This document shows, piece after piece, positions 37,224 to 64,000 of a stretch of DNA of 64,000 bases. Both the position numbers and the translations under genes were made by a program. Each line of letters opens with the position of its first letter. The stretch's first letter is position 1. The stretch is taken from the IMG/VR virus record IMGVR_UViG_3300009514_000007, positions 51,953-115,952 of that record. The stretch is one strand, 5' to 3'. Source of the stretch: a virus. Below the pieces are notes generated by a model. The model was not told the origin of the DNA. It did not search any database and worked only from the letters and a program-made list of their open reading frames with translations.

Positions 37224-37457
37224 ATGCAGTCCAAGTGGAAAAAACTGAGGGAAGGGCATTGGGTGTCTTGGAACGGATACGAGATCCAAAAAGACGCCAA
37301 GGCCAAATCCAAGTGGCATCTCTACGACCCTGACGGCGCGGCTGTCCACGTCGAAGGCCAGTGTACGTGGGGTAGTCTACGTGGAGCGCAACGAGCCCAC
37401 GCAACGGTACAGTCCACAGGTGAAGCGCTCGCGGCGAGACACATCCACACCGCGTAA
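37224..37457 (+). CDS. Small hypothetical protein overlapping groEL start
   Basis: The product has 77 aa, starting 3 nt after the previous stop; no strong SD. Residues 1-50 contain KKLREGHWVSWNGYEIQKDA, a beta-rich small domain. The last 77 nt overlap the proposed GTG start of the GroEL gene in another frame. If GroEL starts further downstream the overlap shrinks. Function unknown. Confidence 0.45.
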   Translation: MQSKWKKLREGHWVSWNGYEIQKDAKAKSKWHLYDPDGAAVHVEGQCTWGSLRGAQRAHATVQSTGEALAARHIHTA

Positions 37458-39036
37458 GCCCGTCACCATCACCACAGGCTCGTCCGCTCGCGGCCGTTTG
37501 GTTCGTGGTGCCGACGAGCTTCATCGTGTGGTGCGTGTAACCTACGGACCTTCGGGTGGCACGGTCATGCTTGACCGTGCGTTTGGTTTGCTTTCCACGC
37601 GCGATGGGGTCACCGTTGCCTGCGAGGTTGCGCCATCGGACCCGGTTGCTCGGCTCGGCGCCGACGTTCTCCGACGAGCGTGTGTTCGCGTGAACGAGGA
37701 TGCGGGCGACGGAACCTCGACCGCTGCGATTCTCGCAGGAGCCTTGCTCACTGAGGGGCACAAGATCGTGACAGGCGGGGCAGACCCCGGCGAGGTTGCA
37801 CGCGGGATGCTCGATGCGGCTCAGATCGCCAGCGAGGTCGTGGGCGAGCTTGTTGTGCCCGTGGACGACGAAGACACGCTTCGCCAGATTGCCTTGCATA
37901 CGACCAAACGAGACGAGCCGGTAGCCGAGGCCCTGGCCGAAGCCTGCATGTTGGTTGGGTCCAAGGGAATGATCGTGATCGAGGACGGCAAGGGGCGCGG
38001 CATCGAGGTCGTCCCGAAGCACGGGGTCGAGGTCAAGCAGGGATGGCAGTCGATGGAATTCGGGGACGACACTGGCGAGTGGAGCCAGGACGTGTGCCTC
38101 GTTGCCGTGATCGCCAAGCCCCTGATGCGCTTTGACGACGTGGCTTCGATCTTGGAGGCCGCGAGCATGGTCGCACCGGGCAACCTCCCTCTCCTGATCG
38201 TTGGCGAGGGCGTGTATGGTGAGGCGCTTGTCACGATGGTCACGAACCACAACAAGGACGTGATCCGGTGTTGTGCGATCCAAGGGCCGGGGCACGGGCC
38301 GTTCGTGAAGGACCACTTGCAGGACATCGCCGCATTCACGCAAGCCAAGCTCGTTGACCCCGAGGCAGGGATGGACCACAAGAGCTTTCAGTCCGAGTGG
38401 CTTGGTTCGATCCAGCAAGTGAGCGTCGGGCCAAAAAAGACGACGCTCGTTGCGTTTGACGATGCTCTCGATTCGATCCAATCAAGAATTCGATCGTTGG
38501 AACGGCGGCGAGATGCTGCTGAGCACAGCCATGACCGAGATCGCCTCAGTGAGCGGATCGCCAAGCTCGCGGATGGGCTGTGCGTCCTGCGAGTGGGCGG
38601 AGTCACCGAGGCCGAGGCCAAGGAGCGTCGAGGCCGCGTCGAGGACGCTCTGCACGCTGTCCGGGCCGCTTTGACCGAGGGCGTGGTGCCCGGAGCCGGC
38701 ATGGCGTACCTTGCGGCATCCGAAGTTATTGAAACCATTGGCTTTTCTCCGGGAGACCGTGGAGCCGGTCAACGGGCGCTCGTGAAGGCGCTCAGGGAGC
38801 CTCTGAGAGCCCTTGTAACTAACGCGGGCCAGGAGCCGTCCGTGGTGCTGGAACGCCTGAGATTGGCGTCAGATGGCGCGTACTGGCATGGTTGGGACGC
38901 CTTGTCGGGGCAGGTCCGCGACCTGCTTGAGCCGCCAATTCTGGCTGATCCCTTGCGGGTTGTGCGCTCGACCATTGAGACAGCCGCCTCGGCAGCGGCC
39001 ACCTTGCTCACTGCCGAGGTAGCGATCACGGCGTAA
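37381..39036 (+). CDS. groEL: Phage GroEL-like chaperonin
   Basis: The product has 551 aa, close to bacterial GroEL (about 548). The ATP site is intact: VTYGPSGGTVML corresponds to GroEL VTLGPKGRNVVL, D75 lies in STRDGVTVA (GroEL D52), D110 in AGDGTSTAA (D87), D422 in RVEDALHAVRAA (D398), and TEGVVPGAGMAYL matches the EGVVAGGG loop. The apical segment is aligned but divergent, and the Gly-Gly-Met tail is absent. It would fold phage proteins as a ring ATPase, as in EL-type giant phages. No GroES gene was recognised here. The GTG start adds about 25 residues beyond GroEL and overlaps the preceding gene; a start further in (for example GTG 37420) is possible. Confidence 0.92.
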   Translation: MERNEPTQRYSPQVKRSRRDTSTPRKPVTITTGSSARGRLVRGADELHRVVRVTYGPSGGTVMLDRAFGLLSTRDGVTVACEVAPSDPVARLGADVLRRACVRVNEDAGDGTSTAAILAGALLTEGHKIVTGGADPGEVARGMLDAAQIASEVVGELVVPVDDEDTLRQIALHTTKRDEPVAEALAEACMLVGSKGMIVIEDGKGRGIEVVPKHGVEVKQGWQSMEFGDDTGEWSQDVCLVAVIAKPLMRFDDVASILEAASMVAPGNLPLLIVGEGVYGEALVTMVTNHNKDVIRCCAIQGPGHGPFVKDHLQDIAAFTQAKLVDPEAGMDHKSFQSEWLGSIQQVSVGPKKTTLVAFDDALDSIQSRIRSLERRRDAAEHSHDRDRLSERIAKLADGLCVLRVGGVTEAEAKERRGRVEDALHAVRAALTEGVVPGAGMAYLAASEVIETIGFSPGDRGAGQRALVKALREPLRALVTNAGQEPSVVLERLRLASDGAYWHGWDALSGQVRDLLEPPILADPLRVVRSTIETAASAAATLLTAEVAITA

Positions 39037-40745: not shown

Positions 40746-43700
40746 GTGGTGATGGACGACGCGCTTAAAGCCGTGTACGGCAAGCTCAAGGACTACCGCA
40801 CGCGGACGGATCTTTCCCTGCGCGCATCTCCATTCCTCAAGCCCACGTTCACTGGCTTTGACGGCTCGGAGAAACCGTTGAGCCATCGCTACTACCAAGT
40901 GCAGGGGATCCTGCACTTGGTCGCCATGACCCGGTTCTTGCTCGGCGACGACTGTGGACTCGGCAAGTGCGTGACCGGCGATACGTTGGTTTTGACCGAT
41001 CAGGGCCTCCGCGAGATCCATACCTTGCGTGCCGATTTGAGCGAACCGGCCGAACCAGGCACGTTCCTCAAGGCCGAGCCGTGTCGAGTGTGGACTGGAC
41101 GAGAATGGGCTCCGATTAAGTCGTTCTATTTCGATGGGGAAAAACCAACGAAGCGGATCCAAACCCGCTACGGGTTCACCATCGAGGGCTCGTATCGTCA
41201 CCCGCTGTGGGTTCGTAAATCGGAAGGTGAAGGTTGGAGGCGGCTGCCTGACCTCGCGGCGGGGGATTTCGTGTGCATTGAACGACGCGAGATGGCATGG
41301 CCGGAGGACAAGGTGCCTCTGCATTGGGTCACGGATCGCCCGTCCAATGCCAAGCAATACAAAACGCCCGAGTGTCTGACCCCGGAGCTTGCCCGGTTGC
41401 TCGGGTATTTCGTGGCGGAGGGAAATTCAACGAACCCAAACGGGTTCACGATCACGCAATTCGACCCCGAGGTACACGCGGACATCCGTGATTTGCTGGA
41501 TGGCTGTTTTGGTTGGACGGGCAACGCCCATAGCCAGAAGGCCGACACGGAGATTCAAATATCGAGTGTCGTGCTCCGCGATTTCGTTGCGCACTGCGGG
41601 GCTCTGCATGTTAAATCGGCCAAGAAACAGATCCCGTGGCGAATCCTCCGCTCCCCGCGTGAGGTCGTGGTTCAATTTCTACGCGGACTATTTGAGGGGG
41701 ACGGCCATGCTCTCCCCGGATCCGGGATCGAGTACACCTCAAAATCGAGGCGGCTGTGTTCGGAGGTCCAGGCCACGCTCCTGCGTTTTGGGATTGTGTC
41801 GAAAGTAAGCTGCAAACCCGTCAACGGTGAGGACTATTGGAGGCTGACGATCTTTGGCGACGACGCGAGGGGGTTTGCGCAGAAGATTGGGTTTGTGACG
41901 GCGCGCAAGAACGAAGCCTTGGATCAAGTGCTGTCGAAAAACGGCAACCCGAACCACGACGTGCTTCCGTTTGTTGCACCCCTTGTGTCCGCTTTGTATG
42001 CCAAGCTCAAAGATGCCACGACGGTTCGTGGAGCGAATGTCGCCAAACGCGGGTCGGGGATCAAGCAATTTGGCAACGGATTTCGGCTCGCCATGCGCGA
42101 GGTGATCAGGGGAGAGCGTGACCTGACCTATGCCAAGCTGGACGAGCTTCTTTCCCGGTGCCTGGATTTCGGATTGTCGTCGGAACCTGAGTTCCAAAAA
42201 CTGCATACGCTTGCATCTCGTCGGTTTTTCTACGACCCCGTTGTGTCGATCGAGGACGGCCACGCTCCTGTCATGGACCTGGAGATCGATCACGACGACC
42301 ACAGCTTCGTGGGCAACGGGTTCGTCAACCACAACACACTCCAGGCGATCACCGCGCTGTGTTTCCTGTGGGAGCGCGATCCGAATCAAAAGGTCGTGAT
42401 CCTGACGAACAAGAGTGCGGTCGGTCAGTGGTGCAAGGAATTCGACAAGTTCTGTCACTCGGACAAGCTCACGATTCTTCGCTGCATCGGCACCCCCGCC
42501 AAGCGCAAGAAGGTCTACGCCGAGTTTGAGGCCGCGACGGGGCCGACCATCCTGGTCATGGGGTACGCGACGGCGCGCCAGGACATCAGCCTGATCCAAG
42601 ATTGGTCCGACTACATCGTGATCTTCGATGAAGCCACGGCGTTCAAGAACCCCAAGACACAGATCTACAAGGTCGCTCGCCACCTGTCGGAGCGGGCAGC
42701 GGGGCTCGACCGGGAAAGTGGTGAGTGGCGTAAGGGTCGCGTGTGGGCGCTGACGGCGACGCTGATCAAGAACCACCTGATTGAAGGTTACGGGATCTAC
42801 AGTGTGATCGTGCCGGGTCTGTTTCCGTCGAGCAAAAACAAATTCGTCAACCGCTTCTGCATCACCAAGCTCCAACGGATCAAGGGCAACCGCCATATCC
42901 CGATCATCGTCGGCTACCGCGACGGAGCCATTCCCGAGTTCAAGGAGAAGATCGACCCGTACTACCTTGGGCGACCCAAGCACGAGGTAGCCAAGGAGCT
43001 TCCGCCGCTCACGACCCGCATCGAGAAGGTCGGGTTGACTAAGGCGCAGAAGGACAAATACGCCGAGGCGCTTGCCGGGTTGTTGGAGATCGACAAGACG
43101 GGCGAGGAAAAGGAAACGACCAAGCTGACGGCGTTGATCTACTGTCAGCAGATCGTAGACCACCCGGCGCTGGTCGAGTGCGAGGGAGAGTCGGAGAAGC
43201 TGGAGACGCTGATCGACCTCGTGACCAATGGGGAATTCGCCGAGGAAAACGTGATCGTCTACTCGCGCTTCCGCAAGATGGTGGATTACATGCAGCCCAT
43301 CTTGGAAAAGAAGGGCGTCAAGACGGTGCGCATCACAGGCGCCGAGAAGGACGACGAGCGCTTGGAGGCGATGGAGGCATTTCAGAACCCGAAAGCGGAA
43401 GCCCGTTGCGCGCTGATCACCGACGCGGCCTCCGAGGCGATCAACCTCCAGTCGGCCAAGGTGATCATCTTCTACGACTCGCCGTGGTCGGCAGGTAACC
43501 TGCTCCAGATCCTTGGCCGTATGATCCGAATCGGGTCTGAGCATGATCGCTGCTACGCCATTCATCTATGCGCGCGGCGAACCATTGACGAGAAGGTGCT
43601 CGCCGTCCTCAAAAAGAAGATGAAGCTGATCGAGTCCATTATCGGTAAGCGGATCAAGGGCGAGGACGACGACGTAGAGGTTGCAGAGGTTAACGACATC

Positions 43701-43754
43701 ACCGAGATCTTCGACGCCATGAAGGCCGACGCATTGGGCTTCTTGAACGAATGA
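40746..43754 (+). CDS. SNF2-family DNA helicase/ATPase interrupted by an intein
   Basis: The precursor has 1002 aa; removing residues 75-530 leaves a 546-aa helicase. Exteins join as GLGK plus TLQAI, rebuilding the Walker A P-loop. Downstream are YIVIFDEATAFKN (DEAx box), LTATLIKN (motif III), and NLQSAKVIIFYDSPW followed by QILGRMIRIG (motifs V and VI), typical of SNF2/RapA-like ATPases seen in phage replication regions. The start is GTG 40746, GTG 40749 or ATG 40752; ATG is plausible. It overlaps the next gene by ATGA. The enzyme can hydrolyse ATP only after splicing, since the insertion splits the P-loop Lys from its Thr. Confidence 0.9.
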   Translation: MVMDDALKAVYGKLKDYRTRTDLSLRASPFLKPTFTGFDGSEKPLSHRYYQVQGILHLVAMTRFLLGDDCGLGKCVTGDTLVLTDQGLREIHTLRADLSEPAEPGTFLKAEPCRVWTGREWAPIKSFYFDGEKPTKRIQTRYGFTIEGSYRHPLWVRKSEGEGWRRLPDLAAGDFVCIERREMAWPEDKVPLHWVTDRPSNAKQYKTPECLTPELARLLGYFVAEGNSTNPNGFTITQFDPEVHADIRDLLDGCFGWTGNAHSQKADTEIQISSVVLRDFVAHCGALHVKSAKKQIPWRILRSPREVVVQFLRGLFEGDGHALPGSGIEYTSKSRRLCSEVQATLLRFGIVSKVSCKPVNGEDYWRLTIFGDDARGFAQKIGFVTARKNEALDQVLSKNGNPNHDVLPFVAPLVSALYAKLKDATTVRGANVAKRGSGIKQFGNGFRLAMREVIRGERDLTYAKLDELLSRCLDFGLSSEPEFQKLHTLASRRFFYDPVVSIEDGHAPVMDLEIDHDDHSFVGNGFVNHNTLQAITALCFLWERDPNQKVVILTNKSAVGQWCKEFDKFCHSDKLTILRCIGTPAKRKKVYAEFEAATGPTILVMGYATARQDISLIQDWSDYIVIFDEATAFKNPKTQIYKVARHLSERAAGLDRESGEWRKGRVWALTATLIKNHLIEGYGIYSVIVPGLFPSSKNKFVNRFCITKLQRIKGNRHIPIIVGYRDGAIPEFKEKIDPYYLGRPKHEVAKELPPLTTRIEKVGLTKAQKDKYAEALAGLLEIDKTGEEKETTKLTALIYCQQIVDHPALVECEGESEKLETLIDLVTNGEFAEENVIVYSRFRKMVDYMQPILEKKGVKTVRITGAEKDDERLEAMEAFQNPKAEARCALITDAASEAINLQSAKVIIFYDSPWSAGNLLQILGRMIRIGSEHDRCYAIHLCARRTIDEKVLAVLKKKMKLIESIIGKRIKGEDDDVEVAEVNDITEIFDAMKADALGFLNE
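40968..42335 (+). other. Intein with LAGLIDADG homing endonuclease
   Basis: The intein has 456 aa. It begins with Cys1 (CVTGDTLVLTDQG, block A) and ends with NGFVNHN (blocks F/G, penultimate His, terminal Asn), with Thr as the +1 extein residue. Block B is GSYRHPLW, where Ser replaces the usual Thr. Two dodecapeptide motifs of a LAGLIDADG endonuclease are present: LLGYFVAEGN (precursor residues 218-227) and FLRGLFEGDG (311-320), both with the acidic residue. It therefore looks like a complete, splicing-competent, mobile intein. The insertion point GK/T is a known hot spot for inteins in ATPases. Confidence 0.93.
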
Positions 43755-46335: not shown

Positions 46336-46797
46336 ATGGAAATCTCGCTGAGACTAGGCGATTGCCGCGAGCGGCTTGCTGAGCTTGAGGACGAGTCGAT
46401 GGACGCCGTGATCTTCGATCCCCCATACGAGCTAGGCTTCATGGGCAAGGATTGGGATGCCTCGGGAGTCGCTTACGACCCGGAGCTTTGGGAAGAAATC
46501 ATGCGTGCCCTCAAACCAGGCGGAGTCGTCAAGGCGTTCGGCGGGACACGGACATTTCACCGCATGGCTGCGGTGATGGAGAGAGTGGGTTTCGTAGGCG
46601 TTGCGACACAAATGGAGGCATGGACCTACGGGAGTGGCTTCCCAAAAAGTCTAAACATTTCAAAGGCTTTGCGGAAAAAGGCCAAACAAGATTCTGATCC
46701 GTCGCTCGCCAAGCTCGCCGAAACATGGGAAGGGTACGGCACTGCGCTTAAACCAGCGTGGGAGCCGGTCCTTGTTGCCCACAAGCCGGAGGCGTAG
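46336..46797 (+). CDS. N-terminal half of a DNA amino-methyltransferase (DPPY motif)
   Basis: The product has 153 aa. It contains the catalytic motif IV D28-P-P-Y and the downstream LKPGGVVKAFGGTRTFHRM strand of N4-cytosine/N6-adenine methyltransferases, ending at the conserved PAWEPVLVAHKP strand. The AdoMet motif (F-x-G-x-G) is missing; it is present in the next ORF, which follows in the same frame directly after a single TAG. In typical relatives both parts form one chain of about 350-500 aa, so this is a split enzyme or a gene broken by one stop. The first codon touches the helicase stop. Confidence 0.8.
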   Translation: MEISLRLGDCRERLAELEDESMDAVIFDPPYELGFMGKDWDASGVAYDPELWEEIMRALKPGGVVKAFGGTRTFHRMAAVMERVGFVGVATQMEAWTYGSGFPKSLNISKALRKKAKQDSDPSLAKLAETWEGYGTALKPAWEPVLVAHKPEA

Positions 46798-48291
46798 GTG
46801 CGCGTCGTGACCCTGGCTCGCTCGCCTGTTCTTGGTGCTATGGCGGCGTGTATCGAGCAAGGGGCAGGCGCGCTCAACATCGACGGAACGCGGGTGGGCT
46901 TTCAAGGGGATAGTGATCGCGCCTCCGCGAAGCCGGGAGGGAAGCTGACAGCCAGAACGGGAGCCTTGGCGGGTAAGACTCAGAACCCAGATCAGAAGCG
47001 GACGGAGTTCACGTCGGACAACAACAAGGGGAGGTGGCCTGCCAACCTGATCCTCCAACACCGGGCGTCGTGTACCCAGACAGGTTCAACCACTGCACCG
47101 GGCTACACGATCAACCGCTGGACGGACGGAGCCAAGCCGTTTGGCGGTGGGGCAGGTCACGAGTACGAGAGCGAGAAGCAGCCCGACGAGAGCGTGGCGG
47201 TCTGGGAGTGCGCAACTGAGTGTGCGATCGGGTTGTTGAATCGAGATGCTGGCGTGCTCACGAGCGGGGGCGGAAAGAAGCATCCAGTAGGAAGCAAGAT
47301 CTACGGGCGAAGTTCGTATTTGGAGAGCGCAACTGCGGGCGATGGTTCGGATTGGCAAGCGAGCAAAGGAACCGCATCGAGATTCTTTCAACAGGTTCAG
47401 GAGACAACGATGAACGAGCTACCGCAAGAACTGGTCGATTACCTGGAGACGATGATCACGCCGCCCGATGGTGAGGTCTTGATCGTGCCGGATGTGTCGG
47501 CCGTCAACTGGACCGAGTACGACGACAACCAGCTACACGGGGTCGTGGTCATCGGGAAGCGGGCGGATGAATTCAAGGGCAACGACTACCTCGATCAGAT
47601 CTATCGGGTGCTTCGACCCGGTGCTCATGTCGCCATGATTGCTTCCGACGAGCAGCCGACCGGGCACACGAACACCTGCGCCCTAGAGGACCAGGGCTTT
47701 GAGATCCGCGATGCCCTTTTGGTCGTGCAGGAGCCGGGGCGCATCCACTATGTCGCCAAAGCTGCAACTGCCGAGCGCAATGCAGGCGTCGCCCCGATCA
47801 AGCAAGAGGTCACGGTCGAACGGTGGTTCCCCAAAGACGACGCGGACCTTGACGAGATTATGGAGGCCCTGGCCGAGTCGCTTGAGCCTGAGCAAATTGA
47901 CGAGATGGAGGTGGAAGGGCTCGACAAGAAAGAGGTCCCCAAGCATCTGCGCGATCAGTTTGAGTCGGCCACCTTTGAGCGGACGATCACACACCAGAAC
48001 AACCACCCGACCTGCAAACCAATTGCCGTCATGGAGCGGTTGTTGGCGAACGTCCCCGAGGGCGCCGTCGTGTGTGACCCTTTCATGGGAAGCGGGACCA
48101 CGGGCATCGCGTGTCTCAACACGAACCACAGCTTCATCGGCATCGACCTGGAGGAACCCCACGTCAAGATCGCCGACGCTCGGATCCGACATTGGGATAC
48201 GAAAAAGCGGCGGACCTGGGTGGCGGAGATTGAGTCCGAGGTCGAGCCCGAGAAACAAGATGACCCGTTTGGCGGAATGTTCGGGGGATGA
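46798..48291 (+). CDS. Methyltransferase C-terminal half with N-terminal recognition-type module
   Basis: The product has 497 aa; its GTG start abuts the preceding TAG in the same frame. Residues 1-204 form a module (VRVVTLARSP, then GRWPANLILQ, ending ASRFFQQVQ) corresponding to the region between catalytic halves in phage methyltransferases, the expected target-recognition position. Residues 205-360 look like a degenerate second methyltransferase half (YRVLRPGAHVAMIAS; RIHYVAKAATAERNAG). The C-terminus holds NHPTCKPIAVMERLL (motif X-like) and DPFMGSGTTGIA (motif I, D427). With the upstream ORF it would make a complete beta-class amino-methyltransferase. An internal SD/ATG at 47399-47412 may give a shorter product. 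Confidence 0.75.
   Translation: MRVVTLARSPVLGAMAACIEQGAGALNIDGTRVGFQGDSDRASAKPGGKLTARTGALAGKTQNPDQKRTEFTSDNNKGRWPANLILQHRASCTQTGSTTAPGYTINRWTDGAKPFGGGAGHEYESEKQPDESVAVWECATECAIGLLNRDAGVLTSGGGKKHPVGSKIYGRSSYLESATAGDGSDWQASKGTASRFFQQVQETTMNELPQELVDYLETMITPPDGEVLIVPDVSAVNWTEYDDNQLHGVVVIGKRADEFKGNDYLDQIYRVLRPGAHVAMIASDEQPTGHTNTCALEDQGFEIRDALLVVQEPGRIHYVAKAATAERNAGVAPIKQEVTVERWFPKDDADLDEIMEALAESLEPEQIDEMEVEGLDKKEVPKHLRDQFESATFERTITHQNNHPTCKPIAVMERLLANVPEGAVVCDPFMGSGTTGIACLNTNHSFIGIDLEEPHVKIADARIRHWDTKKRRTWVAEIESEVEPEKQDDPFGGMFGG
47399..47412 (+). promoter_or_regulatory. Internal in-frame ribosome site and start
   Basis: AGGAG (47399-47403) stands 6 nt before an in-frame ATG at 47410, exactly where the recognition-type module ends. 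Translation here would give a 293-aa protein carrying the AdoMet motif. Its use is inferred from the SD quality and the domain boundary. Confidence 0.5.
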
Positions 48292-48926
48292 AGATCGTCA
48301 CCCTCGCCCGTAAGCCTTTGGGGGGTTCGGTTGCTCAGGGGGTGGTCGAGCACAGAGCCGGTGCGATCAACATCGGTGGCACGCGAATTTCTGCGCATGG
48401 CCGTCCTTTGCGGACGTTCGACCCGAAGCCGGGGGTTGAGCGTAGCGTTGGTTGGGAGCCGGGGTGGGCGGGAGGCAGTAAGGCTAGCGGTCAGACCTCA
48501 CTCGGCCGATGGCCTGCGAACGTCCTGCTCCAGCACACGGCCGGCTGTAAGTGTCGGGGGACCAAGAGGATACGGCCCGGTAACGGGTCGGGGCGTACAG
48601 GAAAAGGGGCACACGGCTTTCAGACCGCCTACGTCGGTGGCGACAAGAAATCCGATGGGTGGGTCGGCGACCATGTTGACGACAACGGTATGGAGACGGT
48701 CGATGCGTGGGAGTGCTCCGAGGGCTGTCCCATGCTTGACCTGGACGGACAAAGCGGTGTGACGCTCTCGTCGGGAGGCCGCACCGCGAACATCTCCAAG
48801 GGCCAACGGATCTACGGTGGCGGTCGAGGGCTCGGCCAAGACCTCACGCCCGACGAGGTACGTGGGGATCCTGGCTACGGGGACGTGGGTGGAGCGAGCC
48901 GCTTTTTCAAGCAGATTCAGCGGTAG
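48288..48926 (+). CDS. Stand-alone methyltransferase recognition-type module, copy 2
   Basis: The product has 212 aa, overlapping the previous stop by ATGA. MKIVTLARKPLGGSV, then GAINIGGTRI, GRWPANVLLQ and the ending GGASRFFKQIQR match the first 204 residues of the 46798 ORF and the partial gene at 63621. It lacks both the DPPY and F-x-G-x-G motifs, so it cannot methylate alone. It has a C-K-C and C-x-x-x-C arrangement that could bind metal. It may supply alternative DNA specificity to the split methyltransferase, or be a relic. Its end overlaps the converging minus-strand gene by 10 nt. Confidence 0.6.
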   Translation: MKIVTLARKPLGGSVAQGVVEHRAGAINIGGTRISAHGRPLRTFDPKPGVERSVGWEPGWAGGSKASGQTSLGRWPANVLLQHTAGCKCRGTKRIRPGNGSGRTGKGAHGFQTAYVGGDKKSDGWVGDHVDDNGMETVDAWECSEGCPMLDLDGQSGVTLSSGGRTANISKGQRIYGGGRGLGQDLTPDEVRGDPGYGDVGGASRFFKQIQR

Positions 48927-49149: not shown

Positions 49150-50139
49150 CTACGCCTTGGCGGCGCCAGCCTGATCGAGCAGCTTGTTCAGGTCCTTGGT
49201 CGTGCTGTTCAAGCTGCGGACCCACGAGGCCACGCTGGCGGCAGCGGACTGAATGGCACGCCATGCGCCGCTCAGCATTCGGGTCAGGTCGCTCCAACCG
49301 AACGCGACGCGAGCGCCCTCGGCAACGGACTCGACATGCTCCATCTGAGCCATCGCCGCGTTGAAATCATTGATCCCCGCGAGCACCTTGGTCAGAACCT
49401 CTTGGTGGGAAAGCTCGCGGAGAGCTTCGCGCAGCAACGTCTGGAATTTTTCCTCAAACGTGATCGTCGGCTCTGTGTGCGACTCGTGACGAGCAGCGGC
49501 AGCGGTTACGGCTTGCACGCTGTCTTGCACGCTTTTGACCTCTTTTTGGAGAGCCTTGAGCTTCTTTTCCGCTCCGGCGAGCCATTTCTTGCGGCGTTCA
49601 CCGCCGCGACCAGCTTCGACCTCTTTGGCGTGTTTGGCGACCAGGGCTTCGGCTTCCTCGATCTTGCCTTCCAAGGACCCGATCATGATCTCGGCTTCCA
49701 AGGCAGAGCGGCCGACCGCAGTGATCAGGCCCTCAGATTTCATCTTGGCCTTGACCCATTCCTCGATCTGATCGCCGTTCTTGATCCCGGCCAGGCTCAT
49801 CTGCTTCGCCACGCCCTTACCACCCATGCCCTCGATGAATTCCTCGGGGAGCGTGATCCCAAACCCTTGCGGACGGCCCTTCTGGCACTTGTTTCGCCAG
49901 TAGGCCGTGGCACCGCCATAGTCAAAGTGATCCCCGAGCTTTTCCACGACCATCTTCCACGCGAGCAGACACTCGGGAGGCAGCTTGCCATCGTGTACGG
50001 CCGCCGCGATTCCACGCGGAGGACGGAAACGGGAGTCAGGTGGCCCGGAGATGCGGGCCTCGTGGATCAACGGCAAAAGCTCGTCCCGAAGCTCAGGCTT
50101 CTCGTAGGCGAGCCGAACAAGGGAGCTTCGCAGATTCAT
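49150..50139 (-). CDS. Coiled-coil protein, minus strand
   Basis: The product has 329 aa from ATG at 50139 (a GTG directly before it is the alternative). The N-terminus is amphipathic (NLRSSLVRLAYEKPELRDEL). The middle (residues about 150-215) is strongly coiled-coil (LEGKIEEAEALVAKHAKEVE; EKKLKALQKEVKSVQDSV). The C-terminus has Trp-containing helices. No enzymatic motif. It is transcribed divergently from the 50211 gene and with the small hydrophobic gene behind it. Could be a structural or internal virion protein; not recognised. Confidence 0.6.
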   Translation of the reverse strand: MNLRSSLVRLAYEKPELRDELLPLIHEARISGPPDSRFRPPRGIAAAVHDGKLPPECLLAWKMVVEKLGDHFDYGGATAYWRNKCQKGRPQGFGITLPEEFIEGMGGKGVAKQMSLAGIKNGDQIEEWVKAKMKSEGLITAVGRSALEAEIMIGSLEGKIEEAEALVAKHAKEVEAGRGGERRKKWLAGAEKKLKALQKEVKSVQDSVQAVTAAAARHESHTEPTITFEEKFQTLLREALRELSHQEVLTKVLAGINDFNAAMAQMEHVESVAEGARVAFGWSDLTRMLSGAWRAIQSAAASVASWVRSLNSTTKDLNKLLDQAGAAKA

Positions 50140-50142
50140 CAC

Positions 50143-62973: not shown

Positions 62974-63621
62974 ATGCCCATGAAGCCCCTGAAAACGACA
63001 CCACCCGACGAAACCAAGACCTTCACCCTCCGCTGCACGCACGAGAAGATGTGGCCGCCGCCGTTGACGTTGCTCAACGTGGACATTCGGGCGATGTGGC
63101 GCACGGGCGAGATCAGCCAGCACGACTACCAGCAGATCGAGACGTGGGAAAAGGTCTGTGGGCTCAAGGCGATGGGGGACAAGTGCATCGACTGTCCTCT
63201 CGCCAAGATTGAGCTACCGCATCCTGGCGCGGGCCAGAATCGGGTGGAGTTGGAGCCGTTGCCGGGATGGCTCAAGGAGCGGAAGCGGTTGCGTATGCTC
63301 GGGACCAAGCCGAAACCCAAGCCCAAGCCTGCGGCCCACAACCCGCCGTCGAAGAAAGAGGTCGTTGTCGAGACTGTGGAAAACAAGGTGGACGAATCGC
63401 CTGTCGGAGATAGCCCGTCGAAAAAGCCTGCCGAGAAAAAGAAGCGCACGAGTAGGAAACGCACAAAGGCCAAGGTGGCCCTGACGGACGACGCGCCTGC
63501 CGAGACGCCTTCCACTCCCGAACCGGAGCCGACCCCGACCCCGGAGCCTGTCGAGACACCCGAGCCCGAAGCTACGGACTCGTCGGACGGGCTTGACCTC
63601 GACAAGCTGCTCAACGAGTGA
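62974..63621 (+). CDS. Zinc-site protein with disordered charged tail
   Basis: The product has 215 aa, starting 4 nt after polA. Residues about 1-105 are ordered, with Cys residues at R-C-T-H and K-C-I-D-C-P. The rest is low complexity: KPKPKPK, KKKRTSRKRTKAK, then Pro/Glu/Thr repeats (PEPEPTPTPEPVETPEPE). This is the look of a DNA-binding or scaffold protein with a flexible tail. It overlaps the next gene by one base (TGATG). Function unknown. Confidence 0.5.
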   Translation: MPMKPLKTTPPDETKTFTLRCTHEKMWPPPLTLLNVDIRAMWRTGEISQHDYQQIETWEKVCGLKAMGDKCIDCPLAKIELPHPGAGQNRVELEPLPGWLKERKRLRMLGTKPKPKPKPAAHNPPSKKEVVVETVENKVDESPVGDSPSKKPAEKKKRTSRKRTKAKVALTDDAPAETPSTPEPEPTPTPEPVETPEPEATDSSDGLDLDKLLNE

Positions 63622-64000
63622 TGCGGGTCGTTACCCTTGCCCGGAAACCCATCGAGGGATCAACCACGCGATCGGTTGTCGAGCAAGGGACAGGGGGGCT
63701 CAGCATTGACGCCTCCCGCATTGGCAACGAGACGATCAAGGTCGGACACAACGCCGGGGACAGCTTCTCGCAGTCCTACAAGGCCAAAGGTACGACCCCG
63801 GAGCGCACGCACTACACGACCCATACGGGACGCTGGCCGACGAATTTGATTCTCCAGGCGAGTGCTGTTGCGGATCTGGACGCTCAGTCGGGCTATCTCA
63901 AGACAGGTCGGGTAGCATCCCATAGTGAGCGGGGGATGTGGGGCAGCGGGGCCGACGTGGACTATGCTGACGTAGAGGCAGGTGGCGGGGCGTCGAGGTT
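63621..64000 (+). CDS. Stand-alone methyltransferase recognition-type module, copy 3 (cut by window end)
   Basis: At least 126 aa, truncated by the window edge. MRVVTLARKPIEGST, GTGGLSIDASRIG, GRWPTNLILQ and the final GGGASR match the modules at 46798 and 48288, starting at the same point of the homology. In the other copies the module ends within about 10 residues after ASRFF, so it may stop just outside the window or continue into a catalytic half. No catalytic motif lies within the visible part, and no DPPY half precedes it. Confidence 0.65.
   Translation, partial: MRVVTLARKPIEGSTTRSVVEQGTGGLSIDASRIGNETIKVGHNAGDSFSQSYKAKGTTPERTHYTTHTGRWPTNLILQASAVADLDAQSGYLKTGRVASHSERGMWGSGADVDYADVEAGGGASR

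Follow-up and report, generated by a model that had tools for sequence, protein, structure and literature searches.

Single-chain beta-class phage methylases, such as the mycobacteriophage enzymes Murphy gp99, Petp2012 gp60 and Elite2014 gp98, carry a DPPY half, a module and a C half in one chain. Together with PHROG 67 and the solved relatives M.CcrMI and M.BceJIV, they are the nearest known single-chain systems; M.BceJIV is an N6-adenine methyltransferase. Type I systems place specificity in a separate subunit, HsdS, with two independently assorting recognition regions and a shared methylating core. In METTL3-METTL14, which acts on RNA, a catalytic methyltransferase unit is paired with a degenerate one. 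M.AquI and M.EcoHK31I are two-polypeptide C5-methylases (PMC3404938). The multispecific C5-methyltransferases of the Bacillus phage SPbeta group unite one core with several recognition domains, as far as the citing text describes them (Trautner et al. 1996, cited in PMC12707154). A split amino-methylase with a separate array of recognition-module genes was not found described in the open-licence literature searched.

The locus presented here encodes the DPPY half (D), the module between the catalytic halves (M) and the SAM-binding half (C*) as distinct gene types. By family it belongs to the beta-class amino-methyltransferases; in the way it would work, it resembles HsdS exchange and the multispecific phage C5-methylases. 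The motif order (DPPY, recognition region, HPTVKP, FxGxG), the anchors GALNID, GRWPAN and ASRFF and some cassettes are held in common with the single-chain phage enzymes, and D is 55% identical to the mycobacteriophage methylases over 98% of its length. The single-chain methylases differ in having DPPY and FxGxG in one polypeptide, no pseudo-DPPY half and no array of free modules. The likeness to type I HsdS comprises a separate putative specificity subunit, two independently assorting regions, to which recognition is assigned by analogy, and a shared methylating core. Unlike HsdS, the modules gave no profile match and no restriction subunit was recognised beside the D, M and C* genes; HsdM, moreover, is a complete methylase, whereas the catalytic core is itself split here. 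The catalytic partner of METTL3-METTL14 is likewise complete, whereas neither D nor C* is complete alone. The conserved motifs of M.AquI and M.EcoHK31I are also split over two proteins that must combine, but these enzymes belong to the C5 class and have a single specificity and no exchangeable module genes (PMC3404938). With the SPbeta-group enzymes, as described in the citing text, the locus shares a phage origin and one catalytic core for several recognition domains; those enzymes are cytosine-C5 methyltransferases with the domains in one chain, whereas the present system matched amino-methyltransferase profiles only and its modules are separate genes.

Gene organisation of the split methyltransferase

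The window, that is, the whole stretch of DNA analysed, covers the final 64,000 bases of a virus record that is linear and 115,952 bp long. Because its genes include those for a Baseplate_J protein, a DnaB-type helicase, a DNA polymerase, an NAD-dependent ligase and a GroEL-like chaperonin, it is assigned to a tailed phage. The chaperonin gene (37381-39036) matched phrog_5725 at 4e-99. A SNF2/helicase-like gene at 40746-43754 is split by an intein-like stretch (CVTGDTLVLTDQGLREI ... VGNGFVNHN).

Directly 3' of the DnaB-type helicase gene, a beta-class amino-methyltransferase is divided over the three gene types at 46336-48926. A preliminary description, made from the letters of the window, had placed three open reading frames side by side here, and all of them were recovered, with lengths of 153 aa (46336-46797), 497 aa (46798-48291) and 212 aa (48288-48926). 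The features are compiled in Table 1. A D/M/C* split system was defined as a C* with FxGxG and without DPPY that is accompanied nearby by one or more D and one or more M; the window holds one D, three M and one C*. Right after the module genes, a 330-aa gene with a weak DUF4192 match lies on the minus strand (49150-50142).

Table 1. Features of the split methyltransferase in the window and positions of interrupted D genes in related phages.
Feature	Position	Strand	Evidence
D subunit gene: DPPY catalytic half, ends in strand VLVAHKP, without FxGxG half	46336..46797	+	profile and homology
DPPY catalytic motif (motif IV)	46417..46428	+	sequence
Strand VLVAHKP, end of D, duplicated as VVTLARSP at module start	46768..46788	+	sequence comparison
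D/M junction: GGAGG 46788-46792, TAG stop of D 46795-46797, GTG start 46798	46788..46800	+	sequence
Module M1 (putatively for specificity), fused-gene residues 1-204; opens with strand VRVVTLAR 46798-46821	46798..47409	+	HMM M 1e-37
M1 variable cassette t1, 45 aa; cassette type as in module L031:6052-6486 (45% identity)	46894..47028	+	
GRWPAN anchor, separating t1 and t2 of M1	47029..47046	+	
M1 variable cassette t2 with cysteines (WECATEC)	47047..47373	+	
ASRFF anchor at M1 end	47374..47388	+	
AGGAG (Shine-Dalgarno) and ATG 47410 inside the fused gene; free C* likely starts here	47399..47412	+	
C* subunit: pseudo-DPPY half and SAM-binding half, fused 3' of M1	47410..48291	+	
Position of lost DPPY motif in C* (LHGVVVIGKRADEF)	47533..47574	+	
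HPTCKP (motif X) of C*	48004..48021	+	
FMGSGTTG, SAM-binding motif I of C*	48082..48105	+	
Module M2, standalone gene, 212 aa, ATGA overlap with preceding gene	48288..48926	+	homology, HMM
M2 variable cassette t1, 39 aa	48387..48503	+	
M2 variable cassette t2 with cysteines (WECSEGC)	48522..48893	+	
Module M3, third module, ends at GGASR with record end; may be standalone or fused	63621..64000	+	
Interrupted D genes	L108:9679, L110:10897, L127:5661, L134:8741, L136:10468, L344 (about 13560), L349 (about 3000)		

D matched phrog_67 at 7.3e-31; alone it reached 21.9 bits against Pfam PF01555 (N6_N4_Mtase), under the curated cut-off of 26.7 bits. C* exceeded this cut-off with 72.8 bits (5.2e-20), M did not match PF01555, and the standalone module M2 matched LR745208 at 3e-23. 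Because D, a standalone module and the C part each match known sequences or profiles, the arrangement is not due to chance. When the modules were searched against profiles, as proposed in the preliminary description, M2 had no match in Pfam and NCBIfam, HsdS families included; the modules matched the region between the catalytic halves of single-chain enzymes.

The strand at the D/M junction had been described as duplicated, and this was borne out: VLVAHKP ends the first reading frame and VVTLARSP starts the second, against a single copy in single-chain relatives. In Petp2012 gp60 and Elite2014 gp98 the strand (I/V)VVARKP occurs once per chain, and MAFFT aligned the terminal strand of other D proteins with the strand that opens the module. 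The first two reading frames share one frame across a TAG codon. Neither amber recoding nor a simple nonsense mutation was accepted as the explanation for this TAG, because of the duplicated strand, the downstream GGAGG and GTG, and the free D and M genes that are the rule in relatives.

The modules had been said to share one boundary and to contain GRWPAN and ASRFF. Correspondingly, M1 starts with VRVVTLAR and M2 with MKIVTLAR, and both contain the two anchors. The listed modules at 46798-48291 and 48288-48926 were found, but a third module, at 63621, had been missed. Completion of this module at the other end of a circular record was ruled out, as the record start does not carry the frame on. 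An assembly break caused by a repeat was sought at the record end; no common 13-mer was found there beyond one chance match.

The C* pseudo-subunit

The second gene had been characterised as a module plus an F-x-G-x-G half. FxGxG is present, but residues 205-497 also carry a degenerate N-terminal half without DPPY. This region is a compact methyltransferase-like unit, and its first ~130 residues can be aligned to the DPPY half found in ordinary enzymes. In C*, the DPPY motif itself has been substituted or lost (DNQLHGVVVIGKRADEF against DNSVDSIVTDPPYELGF), and DNQLHGVVVIGKRADEF occupies the place of DNSVDSIVTDPPYELGFMGKKWD in Petp2012. C* has the SAM motif FMGSGTTG and no catalytic motif; D has the catalytic motif and no SAM motif. 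The hallmark of PF01555, DPPY and FxGxG in one polypeptide, is thus distributed, with DPPY only in D and FxGxG only in C*. All 43 C* reading frames examined in the first set lacked DPPY and kept FxGxG, and C* therefore needs a partner.

M1 ends with ASRFFQQVQETT just 5' of the ATG at 47410, and M2 ends with ASRFFKQIQR and a stop codon. By sequence, a module gene and a C* gene seem to have been joined to give the second gene. Of 11 M-C* fusions inspected, 7 had a Shine-Dalgarno match of at least 5 bases before the internal C* ATG; among 129 other internal Met codons, taken as control, the number was 6 (p = 3e-6). This enrichment suggests that free C* is probably also made besides the M-C* fusion.

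Several C* genes had further peculiarities. Large intein-like insertions were located at HP|TVKP in L114, L144, L136, L143, L151 and L164 (L numbers denote loci). L117 and L129, which are 99.3% identical, differ in the short C* linker between SEREAG and HPTVKP, and this linker may be exchanged too. L193, on a record of 115,647 bp, has three modules beside a C half seemingly without the pseudo-DPPY half; no D was present in the record, whose start adjoins the modules. L108:6063-8765 is a single reading frame of 901 aa with two tandem modules in front of C*.

Recurrence in other viruses

The split form was found in IMG/VR with profiles of the modules and of C*. Single-sequence searches of the virus contigs with M2 or the whole second reading frame returned nothing; alignments were needed. 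Besides the window, about 40 virus contigs with sizes to 618 kb carry D/M/C* sets. After HMM typing of all reading frames, 43 C* loci, including the window and some close relatives, were obtained, 42 with one C* and one with two. D, M and C* were all present locally in 42 of the 43 loci; in the exception, L143, C* adjoins the contig end and neither D nor M was nearby. Apart from L143, each locus has one to six D and one to seven M. At least two modules were present in 25 of the 43 loci and at least two D in 11, and one module was fused to C* in 17. Whole-record searches agreed with these locus-level counts. The genes of each set lie on one strand, frequently with ATGA overlaps. Gene orders include M-M-M-M-M-M-C*-D-D-M in L144, C*-D-D-M-D-M-M-D-D-D-M-M-M in L123 and D-D-[M-C*]-D-M-D-M-D-M-M-M in L252, which is from a bacterial MAG.

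Among 84,980 bacterial and archaeal genomes, C* was detected on two contigs only. None of 50,697 isolate phage records covered 80% of C*; single-chain relatives only were present. According to the preliminary description, related phages with the same module in an unrelated function would speak against a role in specificity. No related phage with a module in an unrelated setting was found among the phages searched.

Selection on the modules and exchange of cassettes

Codon comparisons gave dN/dS values of 0.09, 0.37, 0.32, 0.04, 0.04 and 0.20 for module pairs and 0.05-0.15 for D and C*. By this measure, standalone modules are under purifying selection. The values bear on the idea that standalone modules and D halves are decaying fragments of a duplicated single-chain methylase. 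Duplicated strands at the junctions and the interruption of some D genes in relatives could be read in this way. However, the dN/dS of 0.04-0.37 in standalone modules is low, which argues that they are not decaying fragments; the module ends are conserved, the arrangement recurs in 43 loci and every C* examined lacks DPPY. We give decay next to no credence.

Within a module, the cassettes t1 and t2 assort independently. Pairs of cassettes were scored as alike at identities of at least 55% and as unlike at no more than 35%. Over all modules, one cassette alone was alike in 27 pairs and both in only 2 pairs, and the latter came from closely related phages. One t1 type was common to a free module (L122), a module fused to C* (L121) and a single-chain enzyme (L086), with 72-89% identity.

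Swap events in near-identical phages were seen in only two pairs. L171 and L173 are 98.7% identical over 11.4 kb, with 98.8% upstream (6.9 kb) and 98.5% downstream (4.5 kb). Their C* is 100% and their D 97% identical. Only one block fails to align. It measures 319 nt in L171, sits within the single module gene and extends to either side of GRWPAN; judged by position alone, a block would fall there by chance in about 3% of cases. The t1 cassettes of L171 and L159 are 95% identical, in surroundings that otherwise differ. The second pair, L142 and L156, is 91% identical overall, with 94% in D and 92% in C*. Within the module, the C-terminal portion is nearly identical, and one of the two loci has t1 and the initial stretch of t2, which the other lacks. 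On the sequence level, this pattern is what exchangeable recognition cassettes would look like.

Specificity might instead be set by the D halves, with M as a structural part. D also reaches six copies, and its loops after DPPY and after GFPKS vary. Near-identical phages, however, keep D and C* and replace M, and M sits where beta-class enzymes carry their recognition region, which leaves this alternative highly improbable.

A further alternative concerns the number of working modules. Only one module per phage might function, the others being silent spares for recombination into the expressed or fused copy, in the manner of silent hsdS loci. Both the fusion of one module to C* in 17 of the 43 loci and the clear recombination of cassettes between modules would agree with such spares. 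Yet standalone modules have their own starts, purifying selection acts on them, and ATGA often couples them to D and C* genes of the same operon. Many loci have standalone modules only, and the internal C* start with its Shine-Dalgarno sequence is kept in most of the fusions examined. Silent storage is thus unlikely, although it was rated highest among the alternatives to several working modules sharing one C*.

Structure prediction

As D and the second gene lie in one frame across the TAG, they could be modelled with AlphaFold2 as one read-through chain, using 128 aligned sequences. The D-M-C* model reached a mean pLDDT of 80.0 and a pTM of 0.79, and the strands at both module junctions were ordered; it is a model of a fused chain, and the single-chain relatives in the alignment favour packing of D on the SAM half. 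M2 alone was predicted with a pLDDT of 58 and a pTM of 0.44, and its first strand was disordered. The preliminary description had named modules predicted not to dock onto the catalytic halves as an outcome against it. This outcome was not obtained, with a pTM of 0.79 for D-M-C* against 0.44 for the module alone, in a fused-chain model with a possible single-chain bias. Assembly of D, M and C* is thus predicted, and so is a catalytic fold from both halves together, on which the single-chain rows of the alignment may have had an influence.

The best PDB match of the D-M-C* chain was M.BceJIV (8urk), with 625 aligned columns and a TM-score of 0.71 by target length; matches limited to about 260-310 columns had TM-scores of 0.24-0.32. 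We read the M.BceJIV alignment as covering D and the SAM half. With the same possible bias from single-chain rows, this fits a placement of D on the SAM domain where the pseudo half would otherwise lie.

The modules might have another job, for instance in mimicking DNA, as decoys or in regulating host restriction, and owe their likeness to recognition regions to descent only. The largely disordered prediction for the module alone would agree with this. But the module is predicted to fold within the complex, its anchors and cassette types are shared with the recognition region of single-chain enzymes, and modules nearly always accompany D and C*. Such a job is very unlikely compared with a function in target recognition.

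Proposed function

The data are best read as a heteromeric beta-class DNA methyltransferase of large, mostly uncultured phages, with one SAM-binding pseudo-subunit that works together with exchangeable subunits for catalysis and for specificity; we put the probability of this reading at about 75%. The suggestion that interchangeable specificity modules serve one catalytic pair, already made in the preliminary description, gains support from the recurrence of the system, the swaps in L171/L173 and L142/L156, the independent cassettes and the predicted assembly. D, M and C* would assemble as one methylase, with D supplying the catalytic motif and C* the SAM site. M would read the DNA target and be joined at its two junctions by duplicated edge strands. 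The pseudo-DPPY half of C* may be a docking face or a placeholder. Alternative M and D subunits would draw on a single C*. The window has M1 fused to C*, and the internal start probably yields free C* that could be used with M2 and M3.

Each M would hold two exchangeable recognition cassettes, t1 and t2, flanking GRWPAN, and the methylation target would therefore change on a module or cassette swap. The system would methylate DNA. Because the motif is DPPY, the N6-adenine class is probable, and adenine is the presumed target base.

The copy numbers suggest that several modules may be used simultaneously. In a wider reading, one C* would combine with many D and M in the same infection, and the D copies times the M copies, with two cassettes per M, would give a set of specificities that evolves by cassette exchange. 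We consider the chances of this combinatorial system to be even. A likely benefit would be the protection of phage DNA from changing host restriction systems.

If the proposal is correct, the system would be a phage counterpart of exchangeable HsdS, in which the gain or exchange of one small gene alters the target, and phages would gain protection against many restriction systems at little DNA cost. Protein engineering would also gain an adenine methylase that is naturally in three parts, and a large collection of natural domain swaps could be used to ask how beta-class methylases read DNA, which is an open question.

Interrupted D genes

The D gene was interrupted exactly at the catalytic motif in seven related phages (Table 1). 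In these genes, DPPYG (or DPPYD) is immediately followed by a stop codon and, after a gap of 2-8 bases, by a codon for the same residue. This codon stands directly before LEFMGK (or IAFMSK), mostly in a different frame, and the normal D sequence resumes after it in all seven. From the sequence, this looks like translational bypassing over the stop, as in T4 gene 60, or like termination and re-start. The D genes of L102, L112 and L165 contain large insertions.
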